Source: Desulfarculaceae bacterium (GTDB lineage: Bacteria > Desulfobacterota > Desulfarculia > Desulfarculales > Desulfarculaceae). From it: DNA of 64,000 nucleotides. The stretch covers positions 124,001-188,000 of the forward strand of contig JAHLKT010000008.1 of the NCBI GenBank assembly GCA_020444545.1, given 5' to 3'. The notes under the pieces are model-generated. The model saw only the letters and a program-made list of their open reading frames with translations, made no database searches and was not told the origin of the DNA. The position numbers and the translations under genes are program-made. This document shows, piece by piece, positions 10,067-23,271 of the stretch. Position 1 is the stretch's first letter. The number at the start of each line of letters is the position of its first letter.

Positions 10067-11287
10067 TTAAATCACAAACAGAAGCAGTAGAGCCACGATC
10101 AGCGAGTAGATGCCCGTGGACTCGCTGACCGCCTGACCCACCAGCATCACCCGGGTAAGGAGCACGCTGACCCCTTCCGCGTTGCGGGCGATGCGGTTGA
10201 CTGTGTAGGCCGCGGCCAGACCCTCGCCCACCCCCGGTCCGATGCCGCCGAAGCCCATGCAGATGCCGGCCGACAGAGGCGCCACCCAGGCCACCATGGT
10301 CTCGGAGGCCTCGCGGGGGATGAACAGAAGGATCAGGCTGACCAAAAATCCGTAGATGACCGTGGACTGGGCCACCGTCTGGCCGATGAGCATGGTGGTG
10401 GTCACCGGGCCCGAGGATTCGGGCACCCGGGCGATGCCCGCTGCCGCTTCCTGGGCGGTGAAACCGTTGCCGATGCCGGGGCCGATGGCCGATAGGCCGG
10501 TGGACAGGCCCGCGCCCAGCAGGGCGGCCCAGGTGGGCCAGGGCGGGCTGTTGGACCAGTCCACGAACATGAGCATGAAGGCCACCACCATGCCGAAGAT
10601 CGCCGGGGTCTGGCTGACCGCCGAGCCGATGAGCATGTTGGTGCGGATGGAGGTGGCCGCCGCCGGCTGGCGGGCCATGCCCGCGGTGGCGCTGCCGGCG
10701 GGCATACCCGAGCCCACGCCCGAGCCGATCGCCGCCAGGCCCACGGAAAGGCCGGCGCCCATGACCGCCGCCCAGCCGGGCCACAGGGGCTGGGCCGACC
10801 AGTCGATGAACATGAGCATGAAGGCCACCACCATGCCGAAGATCGCCGGGGTCTGGCTGACCGCCGAGCCGATGAGCATGTTAGTGGTCAGGGCCCCCTG
10901 GGTGGGGGGGTTGTCGGCGATGCCCACGCAGGCCTCGGCCGCCGGGAAACCGCCGCCGGCGCCCGAGCCGATGGCGCTGAGGCCCATGGCCAGGCCGGAG
11001 GCCAGCAGGGACCAGGCCTCGATCATGGGGGCGCCCTCGACGTTCATGAAGGCCAGGAGCATGGCGATGACCAGGGCAAAGATGCCCGCGCTCTCCGCCA
11101 CCGCCTGGCCGATGAGCATGTTCTTGAGGATGGCCCCGCTCATGGCGGGGTTCCTGCCGATGGCCCGGGAGGCGTTGCCCGCGGCGTAGCCCTCGCCCAG
11201 GGCGGCGCCGATGGCGCCGAAGCCCACCGAGAATCCGGCCCCCAAGAAGGCTGCGGCCTGTACCCAAGTTTCCGTGCTAAAGGCCAT
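10067..11287 (-). CDS. Five-hairpin fused ATP synthase c subunit
   Basis: A 406-residue protein that is five c-subunit hairpins in one chain, about 81 residues each (1-85, 86-166, 167-247, 248-328, 329-406), giving ten membrane helices. The helix-2 glutamate is kept in hairpin 1 (Glu65, VAESAG) and hairpin 5 (Glu389, VSESTG). It is Gln in hairpins 2, 3 and 4 (Gln145, Gln226, Gln307). The helix-1 carboxylate follows the same rule: Glu32 and Glu355 are kept, but the middle hairpins have Gly112, Ser193 and Asn274. So two of five ion sites look functional. Hairpins 2 and 3 share an identical 75-base DNA block. The gene lies between atpB and the normal atpE, so both proteolipids should be made together. 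Multi-hairpin proteolipids are known from V-type enzymes, Acetobacterium woodii and Methanopyrus; this 2-of-5 design is the notable point. Confidence 0.93.
   Translation of the reverse strand: MAFSTETWVQAAAFLGAGFSVGFGAIGAALGEGYAAGNASRAIGRNPAMSGAILKNMLIGQAVAESAGIFALVIAMLLAFMNVEGAPMIEAWSLLASGLAMGLSAIGSGAGGGFPAAEACVGIADNPPTQGALTTNMLIGSAVSQTPAIFGMVVAFMLMFIDWSAQPLWPGWAAVMGAGLSVGLAAIGSGVGSGMPAGSATAGMARQPAAATSIRTNMLIGSAVSQTPAIFGMVVAFMLMFVDWSNSPPWPTWAALLGAGLSTGLSAIGPGIGNGFTAQEAAAGIARVPESSGPVTTTMLIGQTVAQSTVIYGFLVSLILLFIPREASETMVAWVAPLSAGICMGFGGIGPGVGEGLAAAYTVNRIARNAEGVSVLLTRVMLVGQAVSESTGIYSLIVALLLLFVI
10565..10639. repeat. 75-bp direct repeat, copy 1 (inside fused c gene, hairpin 3)
   Basis: Identical over 75 bases to 10808-10882, 243 bases (81 codons) away and in the same frame. 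It covers the helix-2 region NMLIGSAVSQTPAIF and the following helix. Confidence 0.9.
10808..10882. repeat. 75-bp direct repeat, copy 2 (inside fused c gene, hairpin 2)
   Basis: Partner of 10565-10639. The exact identity at synonymous positions points to a recent internal duplication or gene conversion between hairpins 2 and 3. Confidence 0.9.
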
Positions 11288-14230: not shown

Positions 14231-14259
14231 TTGACAACCCCCCTGAGTGGTGGTACCAA
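14231..14259 (+). promoter_or_regulatory. Promoter of the ilv-leu operon
   Basis: A perfect -35 TTGACA (14231-14236), a 17-base spacer and TACCAA (14254-14259) as a weak -10 place the transcript start near 14266, about 20 bases before the leader-peptide ATG. Confidence 0.6.
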
Positions 14260-14288
14260 CAATACACCGACTCAACGGAGGACCAGCC

Positions 14289-14420
14289 ATGAGGCGAAAA
14301 TCAAACCCCAGCCCGACGCGCAGTTCCGCGTCCCACGCTCCCTTCCGCTCCGCCTCCCTGCTTAGCGCCATCCTCGGCGTACTCTTGTTGGTATCCTCGG
14401 TAATTATTCTGCCCCTGTAG
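14289..14420 (+). CDS. ilv-leu leader peptide (43 aa), attenuation
   Basis: A short frame with a good ribosome site (CGGAGG, 7-8 bases before the ATG). The peptide starts with a basic/serine-rich half and ends in a run of regulatory residues: of its last 20, 14 are Leu, Ile or Val (LLSAILGVLLLVSSVIILPL). This is the hallmark of leader peptides such as IlvL. It stands 146 bases before ilvD and its stop codon overlaps the RNA segment that can form the antiterminator. I read it as a sensor of charged Leu/Ile/Val-tRNA, not as a functional membrane protein, although the same residues could also make one helix. Confidence 0.82.
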   Translation: MRRKSNPSPTRSSASHAPFRSASLLSAILGVLLLVSSVIILPL

Positions 14421-14489
14421 GGGCCGCAAACACTCTCAGCTCACAACCTGACTGAATGAAGCGGCCCCGGGGCCGCGCAGCCGATTTTT
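14411..14489 (+). promoter_or_regulatory. Transcription attenuator of the ilv-leu operon
   Basis: Four segments can pair in exclusive ways. Segment 1 GCCCC (14411-14415) pairs with the start of segment 2 GGGGCCGC (14420-14427). Segment 2 also pairs perfectly with segment 3 GCGGCCCC (14461-14468). Segment 3 pairs equally with segment 4 GGGGCCGC (14469-14476), which is followed by GCAGCCGATTTTTG. When a ribosome stalls in the Leu/Ile/Val codons, 2:3 can form and transcription continues. When it reaches the stop codon at 14418-14420 it covers segment 2, and the 3:4 terminator forms. The 8 bases between stem and T run are longer than ideal. Confidence 0.75.
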
Positions 14490-14566
14490 GTTCGGCGCGC
14501 ATTCCCGGCCGCATCGCCCCCCACGGACCCCGAGGCCTTGGGCGAGGCTCTAGGAAAGAAAAAAAG

Positions 14567-16243
14567 ATGAAGCAGCGCAGCGATCAAATGAGAAAAGGCG
14601 CCTCCCGCGCGCCCCAGCGTTCCCTGCTCCGGGCCCTGGGCCACCGGGACGAGGACATGGACAAGCCCCTGGTGGGCATCGCCAACTCCTACAACACCGT
14701 GGTGCCCGGCCACATGCACCTGGACCGCCTGGCCAAGCTGGCCGCCGACGGGGTGCGCGCCGCCGGGGGACAGCCCATGGAGTTCAACACCATCGGCATC
14801 TGCGACGGCCTGGCCATGGGCCACGCCGGCATGCACGCCAGCCTCCCCTCCCGCGAGGTGGTGGCCGACAGCGTGGAGTTGATGGCCAACGCCCACAGCT
14901 TCGACGCTCTGGTGCTCATCGCCTCCTGCGACAAGATCGTGCCCGGCATGCTCATGGCCGCCGCCCGCCTGGACATCCCGGCGGTGATGCTCACCGGCGG
15001 GCCCATGGCCGCAGGCAAGCACCAGGGCGAGCAGGTGGACCTGATCAGCGTGTTCGAGGGCGTGGCCCGGGTGCACTCGGGCCAGTGGAGCGCCGAGCAG
15101 CTGCACGCCCTGGAGTGCGCCGCCTGCCCCGGCCCCGGCTCCTGCGCGGGCATGTTCACGGCCAACACCATGGCCTGCCTGGCCGAGGCCCTGGGCCTGG
15201 CCCTGCCCGGCGGGGCCACCGCCCTGGCCCAGAGCCCCCACCGGGCCGAGCTGGCCGAGGCCAGCGGCCGCGCGGCGGTGGAGGTCCTGAGGCGCGGGCT
15301 GAAGCCCTCGGACATCCTTACTGACGCCGCCTTTGCCAACGCCTGCCGGGTGGACCTGGCCCTGGGCGGCAGCACCAACACCTGCCTGCACCTGCCGGCC
15401 ATCGCCCACGAGGCGCGGGCAAACTTCGGCCTGGCCGACTTCGACCGCCTAAGCAAACAGACCCCGCACCTGTGCAAGCTCTCCCCGGCCGGGGAGCACC
15501 ACATGGAGCACCTGGACGCGGCCGGCGGCGTGGGCGCGGTGATGAAGGCCCTGGAGCCCATGCTGGACACCACCTGCGCGGCGGTGGGCGGCCAGAGCAT
15601 CGCCGACTACCTGAGCGCCGGTCTCTCCGACTACGAGGCCCTGGGCCGCCGGGTGATCAACACCCTGGAGGCTCCGCTCAGCCAAGAGGGCGGCATCGCG
15701 GTCTTGCGCGGCAACCTGGCCCCGGACGGCGGCGTGGTCAAGGCGGCGGCGGTGGCCGAGCAGATGAAGGTTTTCTCCGGACCGGCCCGCTGCTTCGATC
15801 GCGAAGAGGACGCCGTGGCCGCCTACGAAGCGGATGTGATCCAGCCCGGCGAGGTGATCGTGGTGCGCTACGAGGGGCCCGCCGGCGGCCCGGGCATGCG
15901 CGAGATGTTGGCCTTGACCTCGTTGGTATCCGGCGGCCCCTTGGACGGCAAGGTGGCCCTGGTAACCGACGGCCGCTTCTCCGGCGGCAGCCGGGGCGCG
16001 GCCATCGGCCACCTCTCGCCCGAGGCGGCCTCGGGCGGCGCGTTGGGCTTGGTGATGGACGGCGACGTGATCGCCATCGACATCCCGGCCCGCAAGATCG
16101 AACTACAGGTGGACGAGGCCGAACTGGCCGCCCGGCGCAAGGACTGGCAACGGCCCGCGCCCAAGTTCACCCGGGGCGCCCTGGCCCGCTACGCTTCCCT
16201 GGTGGGCAGCGCGGCGGCCGGCGCCGTGCTCAAAGGCAACTAG
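14567..16243 (+). CDS. ilvD: Dihydroxy-acid dehydratase
   Basis: A 558-residue Fe-S dehydratase that converts 2,3-dihydroxy-isovalerate and 2,3-dihydroxy-3-methylvalerate to the 2-oxo acids. It begins MKQRSDQMRKGASRAPQRSLLRALG, the usual IlvD start, with GGAAAG upstream. Cluster and active-site segments are visible: ASCDKIVPGM (Cys), CAACPGPGSCAGMFTANTM (Cys) and VTDGRFSGGSRGAAIGH near the C-terminus. A longer in-frame reading from 14456 would begin inside the attenuator and is rejected. It is the first enzyme of the branched-chain operon. Confidence 0.96.
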   Translation: MKQRSDQMRKGASRAPQRSLLRALGHRDEDMDKPLVGIANSYNTVVPGHMHLDRLAKLAADGVRAAGGQPMEFNTIGICDGLAMGHAGMHASLPSREVVADSVELMANAHSFDALVLIASCDKIVPGMLMAAARLDIPAVMLTGGPMAAGKHQGEQVDLISVFEGVARVHSGQWSAEQLHALECAACPGPGSCAGMFTANTMACLAEALGLALPGGATALAQSPHRAELAEASGRAAVEVLRRGLKPSDILTDAAFANACRVDLALGGSTNTCLHLPAIAHEARANFGLADFDRLSKQTPHLCKLSPAGEHHMEHLDAAGGVGAVMKALEPMLDTTCAAVGGQSIADYLSAGLSDYEALGRRVINTLEAPLSQEGGIAVLRGNLAPDGGVVKAAAVAEQMKVFSGPARCFDREEDAVAAYEADVIQPGEVIVVRYEGPAGGPGMREMLALTSLVSGGPLDGKVALVTDGRFSGGSRGAAIGHLSPEAASGGALGLVMDGDVIAIDIPARKIELQVDEAELAARRKDWQRPAPKFTRGALARYASLVGSAAAGAVLKGN

Positions 16244-16253
16244 AGGTTTAATC

Positions 16254-18128
16254 ATGACACCGCTCAAGCAAGCAACCGTCCTGGCGGCGGACAATCAACT
16301 TTCCCGTATGCTCAATCAGGAGATGGGCGAGGCCCCCCAGCAGGCGGCCGCCCCCCAACCGGGAGAAAAGACCATGAACGCTCCTACCCAGACCACCGGC
16401 ACCCCGGACTACACCGGCGCGGACGCGGTGGTGGCCTGCCTCAAGCACCAGGGCGTGGAGGTCATCTTCGGCATGACCGGCGGCTCGATCATGCCGGTCT
16501 ACGACGCCCTTTTCCGCGACGGCGAGATCAAGCACGTCATCGTGGGCCATGAGCAGGGCGCCGCCCACATGGCCGAGGGCTATGCCCGGGCCACCGGCAA
16601 GGTGGGGGTGGTGATGACCACCTCCGGCCCCGGGGCCACCAACCTGGTCACCGGCCTGGCCGACGCCTTCATGGACTCCACTCCCATGGTGGCCATCACC
16701 GGCCAGGTGACCAGCAACCTGCTGGGCAACGACGCCTTCCAGGAGGCGGACATGCGGGGCATCACCATGCCCATCACCAAGCACAACTACCAGGTCTCCA
16801 GCGTGGAGGAGCTGCCCACCGTCTTTGCCGAGGCCTTTTTCGTGGCCCTGTCCGGCCGCCCGGGCCCGGTGCTCATCGACGTGCCCAAGGACGTGATGAC
16901 CCAGACCTGCGGCCAGCTGCTGGCCGCGCCCAGCGCGCCCACCGGCTACAAGCCCCCCTACCGGGGCAACCCCCGCCAGATCATCCGGGCCCTCAAGGTG
17001 ATCCAGGCGGCCCAGCGCCCGGTGATCCTGGCCGGCGGCGGCATCATCACCGCCGGGGCCGATGCGGAGCTCAAGGAGTTCGCCGAGGCCACCGGCATCC
17101 CGGTGACCACCAGCCTCATGGGCCTGGGCGCCTTCCCGGCCGGGCACGAGCTTTTCCTAGGCATGCCCGGCATGCACGGCACCGGCTACGCCAACCTGGC
17201 GCTCAACCGTTCGGACCTGATCATCTGCGTGGGCAGCCGCCTGGACGACCGCATCACCGGCAAGCTGGAGCAGTTCGCGCCCGGAGCCCAGTTCATCCAC
17301 GTGGACGTGGACGCCAGTGAGATCGGCAAGAACCTGCCCTGCCTGGTGCCCATCGTGGGCGACGCCAAGCCGGTGCTCAAGGACCTGGCCAGCGGCGCGG
17401 CGGAGTGGGAGACCAAGCCTGACTACAGCGAGTGGCGGGCCCAGATCGAGGACTGGAAGGAGCGCTACCACATGTGCTTCGCCTCCAAGAGCTCGGCCAT
17501 GGCCCCCCAGGCGGTGGTGGAGCTCCTGGGCGACATGCTCGACGAGGACACCGTGGTGGTCACCGGCGTGGGCCAGCACCAGATGTACACCGCCCAGTTC
17601 TATCCCTTCCAGAAGCCCCGCACCCTGATCACCAGCGGCGGCCTGGGCACCATGGGCTACGGCCTGCCCGCGGCCATGGGGGCCAAGCTGGGCCGCCCGG
17701 AGGCCGAGGTGGTGCTCATCGACGGCGACGGCAGCTTCCTGATGAACATCCAGGAGCTGGCCACGGCGGTGCGCTACCGGGTGGGCGTGGTGGCCATCAT
17801 CCTGAACAACAACTACCTGGGCATGGTGCGCCAGTGGCAGGAGCTTTTCCTGGACAAGCGCCAGGCCGAGACCGAGCTGCAGCCCCCGCCCTACGCCAAG
17901 GTGGCCGAGGCCTTCGGCGGCCTGGGGCGCGCGGTCACCAGCCCCGAGGAGCTGGTGCCGGCCATCGAGTGGGCCCGCAAGGAAGCTCGCGAAAAGCGCC
18001 TGCCCGTGGTGCTGGACGTGTCGGTGGAGCGGGAGGCCCTGGTGCTGCCCATGGTCCCCGGCGGCGCGGCCAACGTTGATTTCATCCCCTGCCCCGGGCA
18101 GGTCAACGAGGACAAGGACAATGGTTAA
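16254..18128 (+). CDS. ilvB: Acetolactate synthase, large subunit
   Basis: The ThDP- and FAD-dependent catalytic subunit that makes acetolactate and acetohydroxybutyrate. The N-terminal Glu is seen in VIVGHEQGAAHMAEGYAR. The C-terminal ThDP motif is GDGSFLMNIQELATA...NNNYLGMVRQW. From the first ATG (16254, AGAGG upstream, 10 bases after ilvD) the protein is 624 residues with a 40-residue low-complexity extension. From the ATG at 16374 (GGGAG upstream) it is 584, nearer the family norm. Tight operon spacing favours the long form; homology favours the short one. Its end overlaps ilvN by 8 bases. Confidence 0.95.
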   Translation: MTPLKQATVLAADNQLSRMLNQEMGEAPQQAAAPQPGEKTMNAPTQTTGTPDYTGADAVVACLKHQGVEVIFGMTGGSIMPVYDALFRDGEIKHVIVGHEQGAAHMAEGYARATGKVGVVMTTSGPGATNLVTGLADAFMDSTPMVAITGQVTSNLLGNDAFQEADMRGITMPITKHNYQVSSVEELPTVFAEAFFVALSGRPGPVLIDVPKDVMTQTCGQLLAAPSAPTGYKPPYRGNPRQIIRALKVIQAAQRPVILAGGGIITAGADAELKEFAEATGIPVTTSLMGLGAFPAGHELFLGMPGMHGTGYANLALNRSDLIICVGSRLDDRITGKLEQFAPGAQFIHVDVDASEIGKNLPCLVPIVGDAKPVLKDLASGAAEWETKPDYSEWRAQIEDWKERYHMCFASKSSAMAPQAVVELLGDMLDEDTVVVTGVGQHQMYTAQFYPFQKPRTLITSGGLGTMGYGLPAAMGAKLGRPEAEVVLIDGDGSFLMNIQELATAVRYRVGVVAIILNNNYLGMVRQWQELFLDKRQAETELQPPPYAKVAEAFGGLGRAVTSPEELVPAIEWARKEAREKRLPVVLDVSVEREALVLPMVPGGAANVDFIPCPGQVNEDKDNG

Positions 18129-18714
18129 TCTCAGCCCCATATCGGTTCTGGTGCGCAACGAGACCGGCGTCCTGGCCCGGGTCTCGGGGCTCTTCGCCCG
18201 GCGCGGCTTCAACATCCACTCCCTGGCCGTGGGCGAGACCGACGACCCCAAGGTCAGCCGCATCTCGGTGGTGGTGGCCGGCGAGGCGCCCATCATCGAG
18301 CAGGTGGTCAAGCAGCTGAGGCGCCTGGTGAGCGTGGTCAAGGTCAGCGACCTCACCGGCCGCCCCCGGGTGGAGCGCGGCCTGGCGCTCATCAAGGTGA
18401 AGGCATCGCCCGAGCATCGCGGCGAGCTGCTGCAGCTGGTGAACATCTTTCGGGCCCGGGTGGACCACGTGGACAACGAGAGCCTGATCCTGGAGGTGAC
18501 CGGCAACCGCGAGAAGCTGGAGGCCTTCATCGACATTCTGAGGCCCCACGGCATCCAGGAGATGGCCCGCACCGGCCAGATCGCCATGGCCCGGGGCAAA
18601 GGCCCCATGGCCGACGCCTGGGCCACCCTGGGCGAGGACTTCGAGGAACCGGAAGGAACCTACAACATCAGCCGGGCCGCTTCGCGCCTGGCCGAAGAAC
18701 TTACCAACGAATAG
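18121..18714 (+). CDS. ilvN: Acetolactate synthase, regulatory small subunit
   Basis: A 197-residue regulatory partner of IlvB. The N-terminal ACT domain is [36 protein letters not shown], the valine-binding part. The C-terminal ALS domain runs to about residue 160. A tail of about 35 residues ([20 protein letters not shown]) is longer than in the usual 160-170-residue proteins. The ATG at 18121 sits inside the end of ilvB, so production is coupled 1:1. It probably confers valine feedback inhibition. Confidence 0.95.
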
Positions 18715-18754: not shown

Positions 18755-19747
18755 ATGAGCGTTAACATCTTCTACGAGAGCGACACCAACCCCAAGCTGC
18801 TGGCCGACAAACGCATCTGCGTGCTGGGCTACGGCAGCCAGGGCCGCGCCCACGCCCGCAACCTGGCCGACAGCGGCCTCAACGTGGTGGTGGGCCTGCG
18901 CGAGGGCTCCTGGTCCTGGGACGTGGTCAAGGGCGACGGCCTGGAGCCCGCCGAGGTTTCCGAGGCGGTCAAGGGCGCGGACATCATCTGCTTCCTGCTG
19001 CCCGATCCGGTGCAGCCCACGGTGTACGAGGAGTACGTGGCCCCCAACATGAAAAAGGACGCCACCCTGCTCTTCGCCCACGGCTTCAACCTGCACTTCG
19101 GCCAGATCACCCCGCCGGCGGACAACGACGTGATCATGGCCGCGCCCAAGGGCCCGGGCAAGCTGGTGCGCGACCTTTATGAGCAGGGCCAGGGCGTGCC
19201 CTGCCTGGTGGCCGTGGCCCAGGACGCCTCGGGCTCGGCCATGCAGACCGCGCTGGCCTATGCCTGGGGCATCGGCGGCGCGCGCGCCGGGGTCATCGAG
19301 ACCAGCTTCGCCGAGGAGACCGAGACCGACCTGTTCGGCGAGCAGGCTGTGCTCTGCGGCGGCCTGGCCTCGCTGATGAAGGCCGGCTTCGAGACCCTGG
19401 TGGAGGCGGGCTACGCCCCGGAGATGGCCTACTTCGAGTGCATCCACGAGACCAAGCTGATCATCGACCTGATCTACCAGGGCGGCCTCAAGAAGATGCG
19501 CCGCTTCATCTCCGACACCGCCAAGTACGGCGACATCACCCGCGGCCCCCGCGTGGTGCCCGAAGAGGCCAAGGCCGAGATGAAAAAGATCCTGGGCGAG
19601 ATCCAGGACGGCACCTTCGCCCGGGAGTGGATCCTGGAGAACCAATGCAACCGCCCCCGCTACAACGCCCTGCTGCGCAAGGACGAAGGCCACCAGATGG
19701 AAGAAGTCGGCGCAAAATTGCGCGGCATGATGAAGTGGTTGGCCTAG
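18755..19747 (+). CDS. ilvC: Ketol-acid reductoisomerase (class I)
   Basis: A 330-residue NADPH-dependent enzyme that isomerises and reduces acetolactate. The cofactor turn [18 protein letters not shown] lies at the N-terminus, and the Mg2+ and substrate residues are in [14 protein letters not shown] and in the [17 protein letters not shown] segment. Length is typical for the short class I form. AGAAACAAAATC precedes the ATG. It ends the ilv half of the operon, and a 235-base gap with a large inverted repeat separates it from leuC. Confidence 0.97.
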
Positions 19748-19980: not shown

Positions 19981-21375
19981 GTGCCCACGCTGCTTGACAA
20001 AATCTGGGACAATCACCTGGTGCGCCGCGAGAGCGGCCGGCCGGACCTGATCTACATCGACCGCCACCTGGTGCACGAGGTCACCTCGCCCCAGGCCTTC
20101 GCCGCCCTTCGGCGCGACGGCCGCAAGGTGCGGCGGCCCGACCTGACCTACGCGGTGTGCGACCACGTGATCCCCACCGACTCCACGGCCCGGCCCCTGG
20201 CCGACGAGATCGCCGAGAACCAGCTCGCCTCCCTGGAAGCCAACACCAAGGAGTTCGGGGTGCCCTACTTCGGCTGGGGCCAGGAGAACAACGGCGTGAT
20301 CCACGTGACCATGCCCGAGCTGGGCCTGGTACTGCCGGGCAACACCGTGGTGGCCGGCGACAGCCACACCGCCACCCACGGCGCCTTCGGGGCCCTGGCC
20401 TTCGGCATCGGCACCAGCGAGGTGGAGCACGTGTTGGCCACCCAGACCCTGCCCCAAAGCAAGCCGCCCTGCCTGGCCCTTAGGGCCGTGGGCGCGCTGC
20501 CCGCCGGGTGCGGCGCCAAGGATCTGATCCTGTACTTCATCGGCTTCTTGGGCGCGGCCGGGGCCACCGGCTACGCCATCGAATACCTGGGCGAGGCGGT
20601 GAGTGGCCTGTCCATGGAAGGCCGCATGACCCTGTGCAACATGTCCATCGAGGCGGGGGCGCGCTCGGGCATGGTGGCCCCGGACGAGACCACCTTCGCC
20701 TGGCTGAAAGGCCGCCCCTACGCCCCCAAGGGCGAGGACTGGGACCAGGCCGTGGCCTATTGGAAGACCCTGCCCTCCGACCCCGGCGCCAAGTATCAGC
20801 GCGAGGAGAGCGTGGACCTCGCGGGCATGGAGCCCATGGTCACCTGGGGCACCAACCCGGGCCAGGTGGCGGGGGTGAACCAGCCGGTGCCCGACCCGGC
20901 CTCCTTCCCCGGTGAGGCGGCCAAGGCGGCCAGCGAGGCCCAGGCCTACCAGGGCCTGAAGCCCGGCGACAAGCTGAGCGAGGTGGGCGTCGACTACGTG
21001 TTCATCGGCTCCTGCACCAACGGCCGCTTGGAAGACCTGCGCGAGGCGGCGGCCATCGCCAAGGGCAAGAAGGTGGCCGACAACGTCACCGCCCTGGTGG
21101 TGCCGGGCTCCATGCGGGTCAAGGCCGAGGCCGAGGCCGAGGGCCTGGACAAGATATTCAGCGAGGCGGGCTTCCAGTGGAGGCAGCCCGGTTGCTCCAT
21201 GTGCCTGGCCATGAACCCGGACGTGCTGCCCGCGGGCAAGCGCTGCGCCTCCACCAGCAACCGCAACTTCAAGGACCGCCAGGGACACGGCGGCCGCACC
21301 CACCTGGTGGGCCCGGCCACCGCCGCGGCCAGCGCCCTTAAGGGCCGCCTGAGCGATCCGAGGGAATTTATGTAG
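19981..21375 (+). CDS. leuC: 3-isopropylmalate dehydratase, large subunit
   Basis: A 464-residue aconitase-family subunit that isomerises isopropylmalate with LeuD. The [4Fe-4S] cysteines are in FIGSCTNGR and in the GCSMCLAMN pair. [30 protein letters not shown] is the family signature. It starts with GTG at 19981, after TTCCGGTAAGGCAAAGGAC. The protein matches the long bacterial LeuC, not the short archaeal HACN type. Confidence 0.95.
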
Positions 21376-21385
21376 GGAGAAGAGT

Positions 21386-21630
21386 GGGGGGAGGCTTTTT
21401 GAAAAAAGCCTCCCCCCACGCCCCCCTCAAAAAACTTTGCGTATTAATGGCGAAGCTTGCTTTGCCTGCGGCCAAGCGGCGCTTCGCCATTAATACAGAG
21501 TTTTGAAAAACCGGCTGCGTTATGGCCGCTCTCGCGGCGGGCGCAGCCCGACCGAGCGCGGCCATAACGCGCGGAGTTCTTTGGGAAGGGGTCCGGGGAA
21601 ACCTTTTCTTGCAAGAAAAGGTTTCCCCGG
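21386..21630. repeat. Array of four hairpins between leuC and leuD
   Basis: Four strong inverted repeats stand in a row. (a) 21386-21417, GGGGGGAGGCTTTTT with its complement. (b) 21441-21496, GTATTAATGGCGAAGC with its complement (16-bp stem). (c) 21517-21570, GCGTTATGGCCGC with its complement (13 bp). (d) 21593-21630, a perfect 38-base palindrome with arm CCGGGGAAACCTTTTCTTG. Hairpin a resembles a terminator but is followed by CACGCCCCCC, not T. The array fills almost the whole 283-base gap between two subunits of one enzyme, which is unusual. Confidence 0.85.
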
Positions 21631-21658
21631 AAGCTCTGACCCGCAAGCGAGAAGCGAG

Positions 21659-22282
21659 ATGCAGAAATTCAACAAGTTCACCGGCGTGGTGGTTCCCCTG
21701 GACATGGCCCACGTGGACACGGACCAGCTGGTTCCCAAGCAGTTTTTGAAGCGCACCGAGCGGGAGGGTTTCGGCGAGGTGCTGATGTACCATCATCGTT
21801 TCGACGATGCGGGCAACGAGGTGCAGGAATTCGTGATGAACCGGCCGCACTACCGGGAGGCGACGATCCTCTTGGCGCGGGAGAACTTCGGCTCCGGCTC
21901 CAGCCGGGAGCACGCGCCCTGGGCCTTGCAGGACTACGGCTTCCGGGTTCTTATTGCGCCCAGCTTCGCGGACATCTTCAAGAACAACTGCTACAAGATC
22001 GGCCTTTTGCCCATCGAGCTGGAGACGGCCTTGGTGGACGACCTGTTCAAGCGGGTGGAGGCCACCCAGGGCTACGCCATCACCGTGGACCTGAAGGAGC
22101 AGACCCTGAGCGGTCCGGGCGACTTCGCCTGCATCTTCCCGGTGGACCCCTTCCGCAAGCAGTGCCTGCTGGAGGGCCTGGACGACATCGGCCTTACGCT
22201 CACCCATGAGCAGGCCATCGTGGATTACGAGAAAGAGCACGCGGCGCCCTGGCAGGCGGCGGTGAGCGGAGGACAGCAATGA
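21659..22282 (+). CDS. leuD: 3-isopropylmalate dehydratase, small subunit
   Basis: A 207-residue partner of LeuC. It begins MQKFNKFTGVVVPLDMAHVDTDQL, with the conserved VDTDQLVPKQFLKR stretch, and carries the substrate-binding ENFGSGSSREHAPWALQDYG signature and the NNCYKIGLLPI strand. The ribosome site (GCGAGAAGCGAG) is weak and lies just after hairpin d of the array. Its stop overlaps leuB by 4 bases. It is of the long bacterial type. Confidence 0.95.
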   Translation: MQKFNKFTGVVVPLDMAHVDTDQLVPKQFLKRTEREGFGEVLMYHHRFDDAGNEVQEFVMNRPHYREATILLARENFGSGSSREHAPWALQDYGFRVLIAPSFADIFKNNCYKIGLLPIELETALVDDLFKRVEATQGYAITVDLKEQTLSGPGDFACIFPVDPFRKQCLLEGLDDIGLTLTHEQAIVDYEKEHAAPWQAAVSGGQQ

Positions 22283-23271
22283 GCAAGCAGCGGATCGCGG
22301 TCATCGGCGGCGACGGGGTAGGCCCCGAAGTGGTGGAGGCCCAGCTGGCGGTTTTGGACGCGGTGGGCGCGCCCTTTGAGTACACCCAGTTCGACGCGGG
22401 CGACGACTGCCTGGAGAAAACCGGCAAGGCCCTGCCCGAGGAGACCCTGGCCGGGGCCAAGGCCTCGGACGCGGTGATCTTCGGCGCGGTGGGCAACAGC
22501 GCGGCCCAGGTCATTCTCAGGCTGCGCCAGGAGCTGGGCGCCTGGGCCAACCTCAGGCCCTCCAAGGCCTATGAGGGCGTGGATTGCCTCCGGCCCGAGA
22601 CCGACATGATGATCGTGCGCGAGAACAGCGAAGGGCTCTACATCGGCGAGGAGGGCGAGCGCGGCCCGGGCGTGGCCACCGCCCTCCGGGTGATCAGCGA
22701 CAAGGCCTCCTACCGCATCGCGCGCTACGCCTTCGAGTTCGCCCAGACGGCGGGCTATGAGAAGGTGACCGCGGTGCACAAGGCCAACGTGCTCAAGAAG
22801 ACCGACACCGTGTTTCTGGAGGCCTGCCGCCGGGCGGCGGGGGAGTTCCCGGGCGTCAAGTACGAGGAGGCCCTGGTGGACTCGGTGGCCATGCGCATGA
22901 TCCTCAAGCCCAGCGACTTCCAGGTGATGGTGACCACCAACCTCTTCGGCGACATCCTCTCCGACCTGGCCGCCGGGCTCATCGGGGGCTTGGGCATGTG
23001 CCCCAGCGCCAACCTGGGCGACGGCCCGGCCCTGTTCGAGCCGGTGCACGGCTCCGCGCCGGATATCGCGGGCCAGGGCAAGGCCAACCCCACCGCCGCC
23101 ATCCTCTGCGGGGCCATGCTGCTGCGGCACCTGGGCCACGGCGATAAGGCCGATCGGGTCGAGGCGGCCCTGGCCGCCTGCCTGGCCGCCGGCGAAACCA
23201 CCGACGACCTGGGCGGCTCCTTGAGCACCATGGGCATGGCCGAGGCGGTCATCGCCCGCCTGGGGGCTTAG
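22279..23271 (+). CDS. leuB: 3-isopropylmalate dehydrogenase (isocitrate/isopropylmalate DH family)
   Basis: A 330-residue NAD-dependent beta-decarboxylating dehydrogenase. It starts IAVIGGDGVGPEVV. The substrate loop is DMMIVRENSEGLYIGEEGE, the catalytic region is KVTAVHKANVLKKTD, the metal aspartates are in VDSVAMRMI and NLFGDILSDLAAG, and the cofactor loop is PVHGSAPDIAGQGKANPTAA. Context makes it LeuB. It is shorter than the E. coli enzyme (about 360) and close to archaeal and Aquifex forms, some of which also act on homoisocitrate. No leuA is present in the window. Confidence 0.9.
   Translation: MSKQRIAVIGGDGVGPEVVEAQLAVLDAVGAPFEYTQFDAGDDCLEKTGKALPEETLAGAKASDAVIFGAVGNSAAQVILRLRQELGAWANLRPSKAYEGVDCLRPETDMMIVRENSEGLYIGEEGERGPGVATALRVISDKASYRIARYAFEFAQTAGYEKVTAVHKANVLKKTDTVFLEACRRAAGEFPGVKYEEALVDSVAMRMILKPSDFQVMVTTNLFGDILSDLAAGLIGGLGMCPSANLGDGPALFEPVHGSAPDIAGQGKANPTAAILCGAMLLRHLGHGDKADRVEAALAACLAAGETTDDLGGSLSTMGMAEAVIARLGA

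Follow-up and report, generated by a model that had tools for sequence, protein, structure and literature searches.

A putative ribosome-sensing attenuator with an invariant stop-codon hairpin precedes the ilv-leu operon in Desulfarculales

In Gammaproteobacteria, Actinobacteria and some Firmicutes, branched-chain amino acid genes are known to be controlled by leader-peptide attenuation, the principle of which is textbook knowledge. In Salmonella, the leu leader uses the rare control codon CUA, and theory for E. coli ties the choice of control codons to the ease with which a tRNA isoacceptor loses its charge (PMC1183508). The Corynebacterium ilvB-II motif and the C. glutamicum ilvBNC attenuator contain a conserved upstream ORF with branched-chain codons and a proposed terminator/antiterminator switch (PMC10272879, PMC11857589). 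Mycobacterial cys leader ORFs have control codons near the stop codon and no obvious terminator (PMC1262725), and Rho-linked uORFs such as toiL have been described (PMC12121999). In Salmonella mgtCBR, the tandem attenuators mgtM and mgtP take ATP and proline as signals (PMC3641672).

The window, a stretch of 64,000 nucleotides, comes from the 4.38 Mb genome G000 (contig C8). Its relatives match records named Desulfarculaceae (order Desulfarculales, phylum Thermodesulfobacteriota). This places it in Desulfarculales, in agreement with the initial annotation, which had called the genome Desulfobacterota-like. We found a leader peptide ORF, MRRKSNPSPTRSSASHAPFRSASLLSAILGVLLLVSSVIILPL followed by a stop codon, on the plus strand at 14289-14420. 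It has 43 codons, from the ATG at 14289-14291 to the TAG at 14418-14420, and a Shine-Dalgarno sequence GGAGG (14277-14281, plus strand) lies 7 nt 5′ of the ATG. Leu, Ile or Val occupy 14 of the last 20 codons. The frame, its good ribosome site and its run of branched-chain codons had been described with every coordinate correct. Among the 413 window ORFs of 20-80 amino acids, this leader is the only one with at least 12 Leu/Ile/Val in the last 20 codons, the runner-up having 9. A putative promoter (14231-14259, plus strand) consists of TTGACA and TACCAA separated by 17 nt, with a -10 element that is weak in the window's genus. A translated-looking leader ORF with cognate control codons is thus located between a promoter and its operon, as in attenuators of the trp and ilv type.

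The operon 3′ of the leader is ilvD-ilvB-ilvN-ilvC-leuC-leuD-leuB, all on the plus strand, and the protein-family matches of its genes substantiate the earlier statement that the leader precedes an ilv-leu operon. The first structural gene, 146 nt past the leader stop, is ilvD (dihydroxy-acid dehydratase, 14567-16243; TIGR00110, 745 bits). It is followed by ilvB (acetolactate synthase large subunit, 16374-18128; TIGR00118, with the start set near the beginning of the family match), ilvN (the small subunit, 18121-18714; TIGR00119) and ilvC (ketol-acid reductoisomerase, 18755-19747; TIGR00465). In the leu block (19981-23271), leuC (19981-21375) and leuD (21659-22282) have TIGR00170/TIGR00171 matches above cut-off, and leuB (22279-23271) matches LEU3-type and 3-isopropylmalate dehydrogenase models, both below their own cut-offs. 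An acetolactate decarboxylase gene (TIGR01252; 23275-24057, plus strand) adjoins leuB at the end of the operon and could drain acetolactate to acetoin. The leuA gene lies elsewhere in the genome (contig C1), with no branched-chain leader ORF visible upstream. A long inverted repeat, CTAACCAGACGACTCC...GGAGTCATCTGGTTAG, is located between leuA and its upstream gene (about 1405-1456 of L113, G000 contig C1) and is possibly a separate control element. On the other side of the leader, an ATP synthase subunit c gene (10067-11287, minus strand) encodes 406 amino acids in which five ATP-synt_C hairpins are fused (five stretches match Pfam PF00137); by eye, the helix-2 Glu is present only in hairpins 1 and 5, and Gln takes its place in the middle three.

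We gathered the DNA upstream of ilvD in relatives and compared it. Homologous leaders exist as 27 copies in 21 genomes, every copy lying before ilvD or ilvB (5′ of ilvD in 20 genomes and 5′ of ilvB in G008). The carriers are 19 of 20 sampled Desulfarculaceae, one genome of another Desulfarculales family and one unplaced genome (L076); the 20th sampled Desulfarculaceae member has no ilvD match. The reading frame is open in all 27 copies, with lengths varying by multiples of three between 35 and 58 codons, and each copy is preceded by a Shine-Dalgarno-like site. The C-terminus LP(L/R)-stop is kept in 27/27 copies, and the surroundings of the stop codon are almost frozen (ATT-NNN-CTG-CCC-CNN-TAG/TAA plus GGGGC). 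The N-terminal two thirds and the length vary freely. All 21 single or first copies have TTGACA (TTGACG in L034) 171-210 nt 5′ of the leader stop codon and 16-18 nt from a -10-like hexamer. Conservation of the leader codons in close relatives, which the initial annotation had expected, is what these copies display.

A motif scan with ATTNTNCTGCCCCNNTAGGGGC against about 85,000 species genomes yielded 23 exact matches. Fourteen of them lie 5′ of ilvD, in L076 and otherwise exclusively in Desulfarculales-like genomes; none of the operon's ilv or leu genes is present at the remaining 9 loci. A covariance model of the element, run on 395 genomes of the phylum, produced matches in Desulfarculaceae only, and it gave one strong match in the window's own genome. 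No meaningful match to the element was found among the 4227 Rfam families, even at E up to 10, and a plasmid search returned no similar DNA. Class-level relatives outside the order (L018-L030) showed no convincing leader ORF 5′ of ilvD.

In genus g7, each of the six genomes contains a pair of tandem leaders with one promoter for both. The second leader starts about 116-146 nt after the stop of the first, and it has no TTGACA box of its own in 6/6 genomes. The two leaders of one g7 genome differ in most residues and have the control-codon class and the hairpin in common. The stretch CGAGCTAG (Arg-Ala-Ser) recurs N-terminally in otherwise differing leaders (L007, L011b, L012b, L013b, L014b and L033b). 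At 35-58 codons these ORFs are long for leaders, and their starts are often basic, as might be expected of a conserved small protein with a non-regulatory function of its own. However, length and the N-terminal two thirds vary freely, tandem copies are dissimilar, and conservation is limited to the control codons, the hairpin and the location 5′ of ilv genes; such a protein is extremely improbable.

We then investigated the codon usage of the leaders. In the window, the control codons GTA, CTC, TTG, TTG, GTA, TCC, TCG, GTA, ATT, ATT and CTG occupy 14379-14411 (plus strand). Codons were counted over the last 22 leader codons, with CTG-CCC-CNN left out, against a background of window genes and the relatives' longest ORFs. 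GTA accounts for 65 of 80 Val codons (81%), compared with 1.8% in window genes and 2.9% in the relatives' longest ORFs, and ATT for 38 of 65 Ile codons (58%), compared with a background of 4-5.5%. CTA is also enriched (11% vs 1-2%). Codon -5 from the stop (14403-14405 in the window) is ATT in 26/27 copies and GTA in the remaining one, despite a background in which ATC makes up about 90% of Ile codons. The control codons are chosen against the genome's own usage. One tRNA-Ile normally reads ATT and ATC alike, so the selective-charging argument is weak for ATT. The third base of the fixed ATT is accounted for neither by the hairpin described below nor by tRNA identity. The preference for GTA, which makes up 2-3% of valine codons in the background, is relevant to the selective-charging theory of control-codon choice (PMC1183508).

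The end of the leader ORF is predicted to form a small hairpin between segments 1 and 2 (14411-14424, plus strand), in which GCCCC (14411-14415) pairs with GGGGC (14420-14424) and the stop codon lies in the TGTA loop. The initial annotation had proposed this hairpin, and comparison upholds it as a predicted pairing whose sequence, CTGCCCC..TA plus GGGGC, is invariant in 27/27 copies. At sequence level, a protector hairpin thus overlaps the end of the leader ORF, as in trp- and ilv-type attenuators. The stem is preserved across loops of 4, 5 and 7 nt. In the first leaders of L011 and L012 (CTGCCCCGG-TAA-CCGGGGC), the bases added after the stop codon extend the stem rather than disrupt it. Among the natural variants, this one argues most for the pairing itself. 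The invariance of the hairpin leaves covariation hardly able to test it. The same C-terminal conservation might point to TnaC-like nascent-peptide arrest, in which Leu-Pro-(Leu/Arg)-stop halts the ribosome at the stop codon in response to a free metabolite; the motif is present in 27/27 copies and the last codon is CTN or CGN only. However, most of this constraint follows from the hairpin, the residues further upstream are kept in class and not in identity, and the strong bias toward rare Val and Ile codons would be left unexplained. We therefore regard arrest by the peptide as improbable.

According to the initial annotation, the leader continues into a four-segment switch that uses one 8-base arm in both alternatives. 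In the window, the arms are GGGGCCGC (14420-14427), GCGGCCCC (14461-14468) and GGGGCCGC again (14469-14476), so their coordinates and perfect complementarity are confirmed. Segments 3 and 4 form the palindrome GCGGCCCCGGGGCCGC (14461-14476, plus strand), exact in the window and in its nearest relative L002, and segment 3 is able to pair with 14420-14427. This 2:3 pairing is stronger than in dinucleotide shuffles in the window (p=0.003) and likewise in L002 (p below 0.01). The two are close relatives with identical arms, and covariation is silent here. The perfect 8-bp pairing is confined to them: in the window's genus outside L001/L002, the aligned arm keeps just 5-6 of 8 pairs. The arm conservation anticipated for close relatives thus holds for L002 and fails in the rest of the genus. 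The 2:3 duplex energy is no better than that of shuffles in 24/27 copies, L076 (p=0.013) being the one exception besides the window and L002, and across lineage groups it is marginal (Fisher p=0.06), with no preferred position. In folds of each copy that assumed either a stalled ribosome or one that had reached the stop codon, GGGGCC found partners 12 to 124 nt away, and no common architecture emerged.

A positional signal is present nevertheless. GGCC occurs 37-44 nt (about 43) past the GGGGC start in 18/27 copies and 10/18 lineage groups (shuffle mean 4.3, p=0.002), a p value that is optimistic because the test was designed after the sequences were inspected. GGCC-N(2-6)-GGCC occurs in 11 copies from 7 lineage groups (shuffle mean 0.5, never reached in 500 shuffles). 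These counts make it likely that genera g1 and g7 have a genuine short GGCC triple (segments 2, 3 and 4) with constant spacing; it was not seen in the other genera. The negative-to-marginal duplex-energy tests had cast doubt on segments 3 and 4 as a whole, a doubt that the positional test partly lifted. Of the proposed four-segment switch, the exact form in the window and L002 and the GGCC cores at a fixed distance in two genera stand, and the 8-bp 2:3 pairing elsewhere does not.

Arm 4 had been placed directly before a T run, which overstates the case. TTTTT (14485-14489) begins 8 nt after arm 4, and the predicted fold prefers a separate, strong hairpin (14475-14500, plus strand) that holds the T run in its loop and has an equivalent in L002. 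A terminator scan of the window reported no terminator at the 3:4/T-run site. None of the 27 copies has a hairpin with a T-rich stretch at most 2 nt behind it (1.6 expected from shuffles), and a relaxed hairpin plus T-run rule matched 1/27 copies (4.9 expected). The classical intrinsic terminator attributed to this leader is thus not borne out. A fully classical attenuator, with 3:4 as an intrinsic terminator with U-tract and 2:3 as the antiterminator, would agree with the exact arms and better-than-shuffled 2:3 pairing in the window, with the recurring GGCC cores of segments 3 and 4 and with the arms and T6 run kept in L002. The distant, looped T run and the scarcity of hairpins with T runs argue against it, and we consider it unlikely.

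Termination probably occurs without a canonical hairpin plus U-tract. The linker between segments 2 and 3 (14425-14460, plus strand) is G-poor and predicted to be single-stranded, and it is a candidate Rho-loading stretch or antiterminator loop. Right after the 1:2 hairpin, it contains at most 4 G in 26 nt in 27/27 copies, compared with a window mean of 8.7; about 2% of 26-mers have at most 3 G. The excess of C over G in the leader ORF is above 95% of the coding background in 19/27 copies, and a rho gene is present in the genome. The composition expected of Rho-dependent leader-ORF attenuation is thus found (rho, C-rich/G-poor RNA and no intrinsic terminator). The G-poor linker and C-rich ORF would suit Rho-dependent termination, C-rich composition being weak evidence for Rho, and the linker could equally be read as the loop of a 2:3 hairpin. 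Rho acting on exposed G-poor or C-rich RNA is our preferred executor, with about an even chance within the best explanation.

No terminator would be required if leader translation altered access to the ilvD ribosome site, as in ermC, or fed ilvD by re-initiation. In the clade of L003, L004, L005 and L032, a CCCC-N3-GGGG hairpin encloses the ilvD ribosome site and could be opened by the leader GGGG. However, neither the window nor other genera have this hairpin before ilvD, and in 19/20 genomes 133-193 nt lie between the leader stop and the beginning of the IlvD match, too great a distance for simple coupling. Such translational control is doubtful, and slightly less plausible than a fully classical attenuator.

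The element probably acts as a ribosome-sensing attenuator that controls the ilvD-ilvBN-ilvC-leuCDB operon. Transcription would start just 5′ of the leader, and the ORF would be translated as RNA polymerase advances. A shortage of charged Val-, Ile- or Leu-tRNA would stall the ribosome at the rare GTA, ATT or Leu codons. The leading edge of a ribosome lies about 15 nt from its P site. With the fixed ATT in the A site, it would therefore stand about 3 nt before the stop codon, over the CCCC arm. By reaching the 5′ arm GCCCC, the stalled ribosome would block the stop-codon hairpin and leave GGGGCC free. In the window, the freed GGGGCCGC would pair with 14461-14468 and alter downstream folding, and transcription would go on. 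A ribosome at the stop codon would cover RNA up to about +12, all of GGGGCCGCAAAC. When amino acids are plentiful, it would thus cover GGGGCC or release it into the 1:2 hairpin, and the transcript would be cut short 5′ of ilvD. By this geometry, stalling would free GGGGCC and normal completion would hide it, which is how classical attenuators work.

Within the limits of sequence analysis, the sensor half is established; it comprises the leader ORF with its control codons, the stop-codon hairpin, the promoter and the cognate operon. The switch half appears in textbook form, except for the terminator, in the window's species, and only its core is seen to be conserved elsewhere; we infer the stalling, the direction of the response and, for copies other than those of the window and L002, the competing pairing. 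The initial reading of a leader-peptide attenuator of the ilv-leu operon thus survives in its ORF, codons, promoter and hairpin, kept in 27 copies, and not in its classical intrinsic terminator. We file the element as a new variety of leader-peptide attenuation, not as the classical U-tract type, because the defining U-tract terminator was tested and not found; an earlier prediction in a deltaproteobacterium may exist beyond the open-access literature that we covered. We give an even chance to the fuller proposal of a lineage-specific attenuator family that has no U-tract terminator (using Rho or tailless hairpins), employs the invariant stop-codon hairpin as its switch and is doubled in one genus so that transcription would have to get past two like sensors to reach ilvD.

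The conserved attenuation variant spans a family of anaerobic Desulfarculales, which offers a natural test of how, in GC-rich bacteria, leader peptides bring transcription to an end in the absence of U-tracts. Like the enterobacterial ilvGMEDA, ilvBN and leu attenuators, it has a Val/Ile/Leu-rich leader ORF between promoter and cognate operon; by layout, it also resembles them in the protector hairpin overlapping the end of the leader ORF and in rare control codons. Unlike them, the Desulfarculales copies have no hairpin plus U-tract, an invariant stop-codon hairpin, and rare GTA and ATT. The enterobacterial ilv layout assigned to this locus earlier therefore holds for the leader ORF between promoter and operon and for the 1:2 hairpin, but not for the U-tract terminator. 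Corynebacterium ilvB-II/ilvBNC also places a conserved ORF with branched-chain codons before an ilv operon, and the ilvB-OMG and Leptospira ilvB motifs resemble it. However, the Corynebacterium ORF usually has 15-17 codons and a terminator with a U stretch, whereas the Desulfarculales leaders have 35-58 codons, no terminator of this kind and an invariant stop-codon hairpin. The mycobacterial cys and toiL-type leaders share a conserved leader ORF, with Rho suggested or shown as executor there, but they respond to another amino acid or signal, and they are not reported to have the hairpin described here. As in mgtM/mgtP, two short regulatory ORFs lie in one leader in genus g7; while mgtM and mgtP read different signals, both g7 ORFs have branched-chain codons and the same hairpin. 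These tandem leaders are a natural test of what is gained by placing two like sensors one after the other; the obvious guess is a steeper response.
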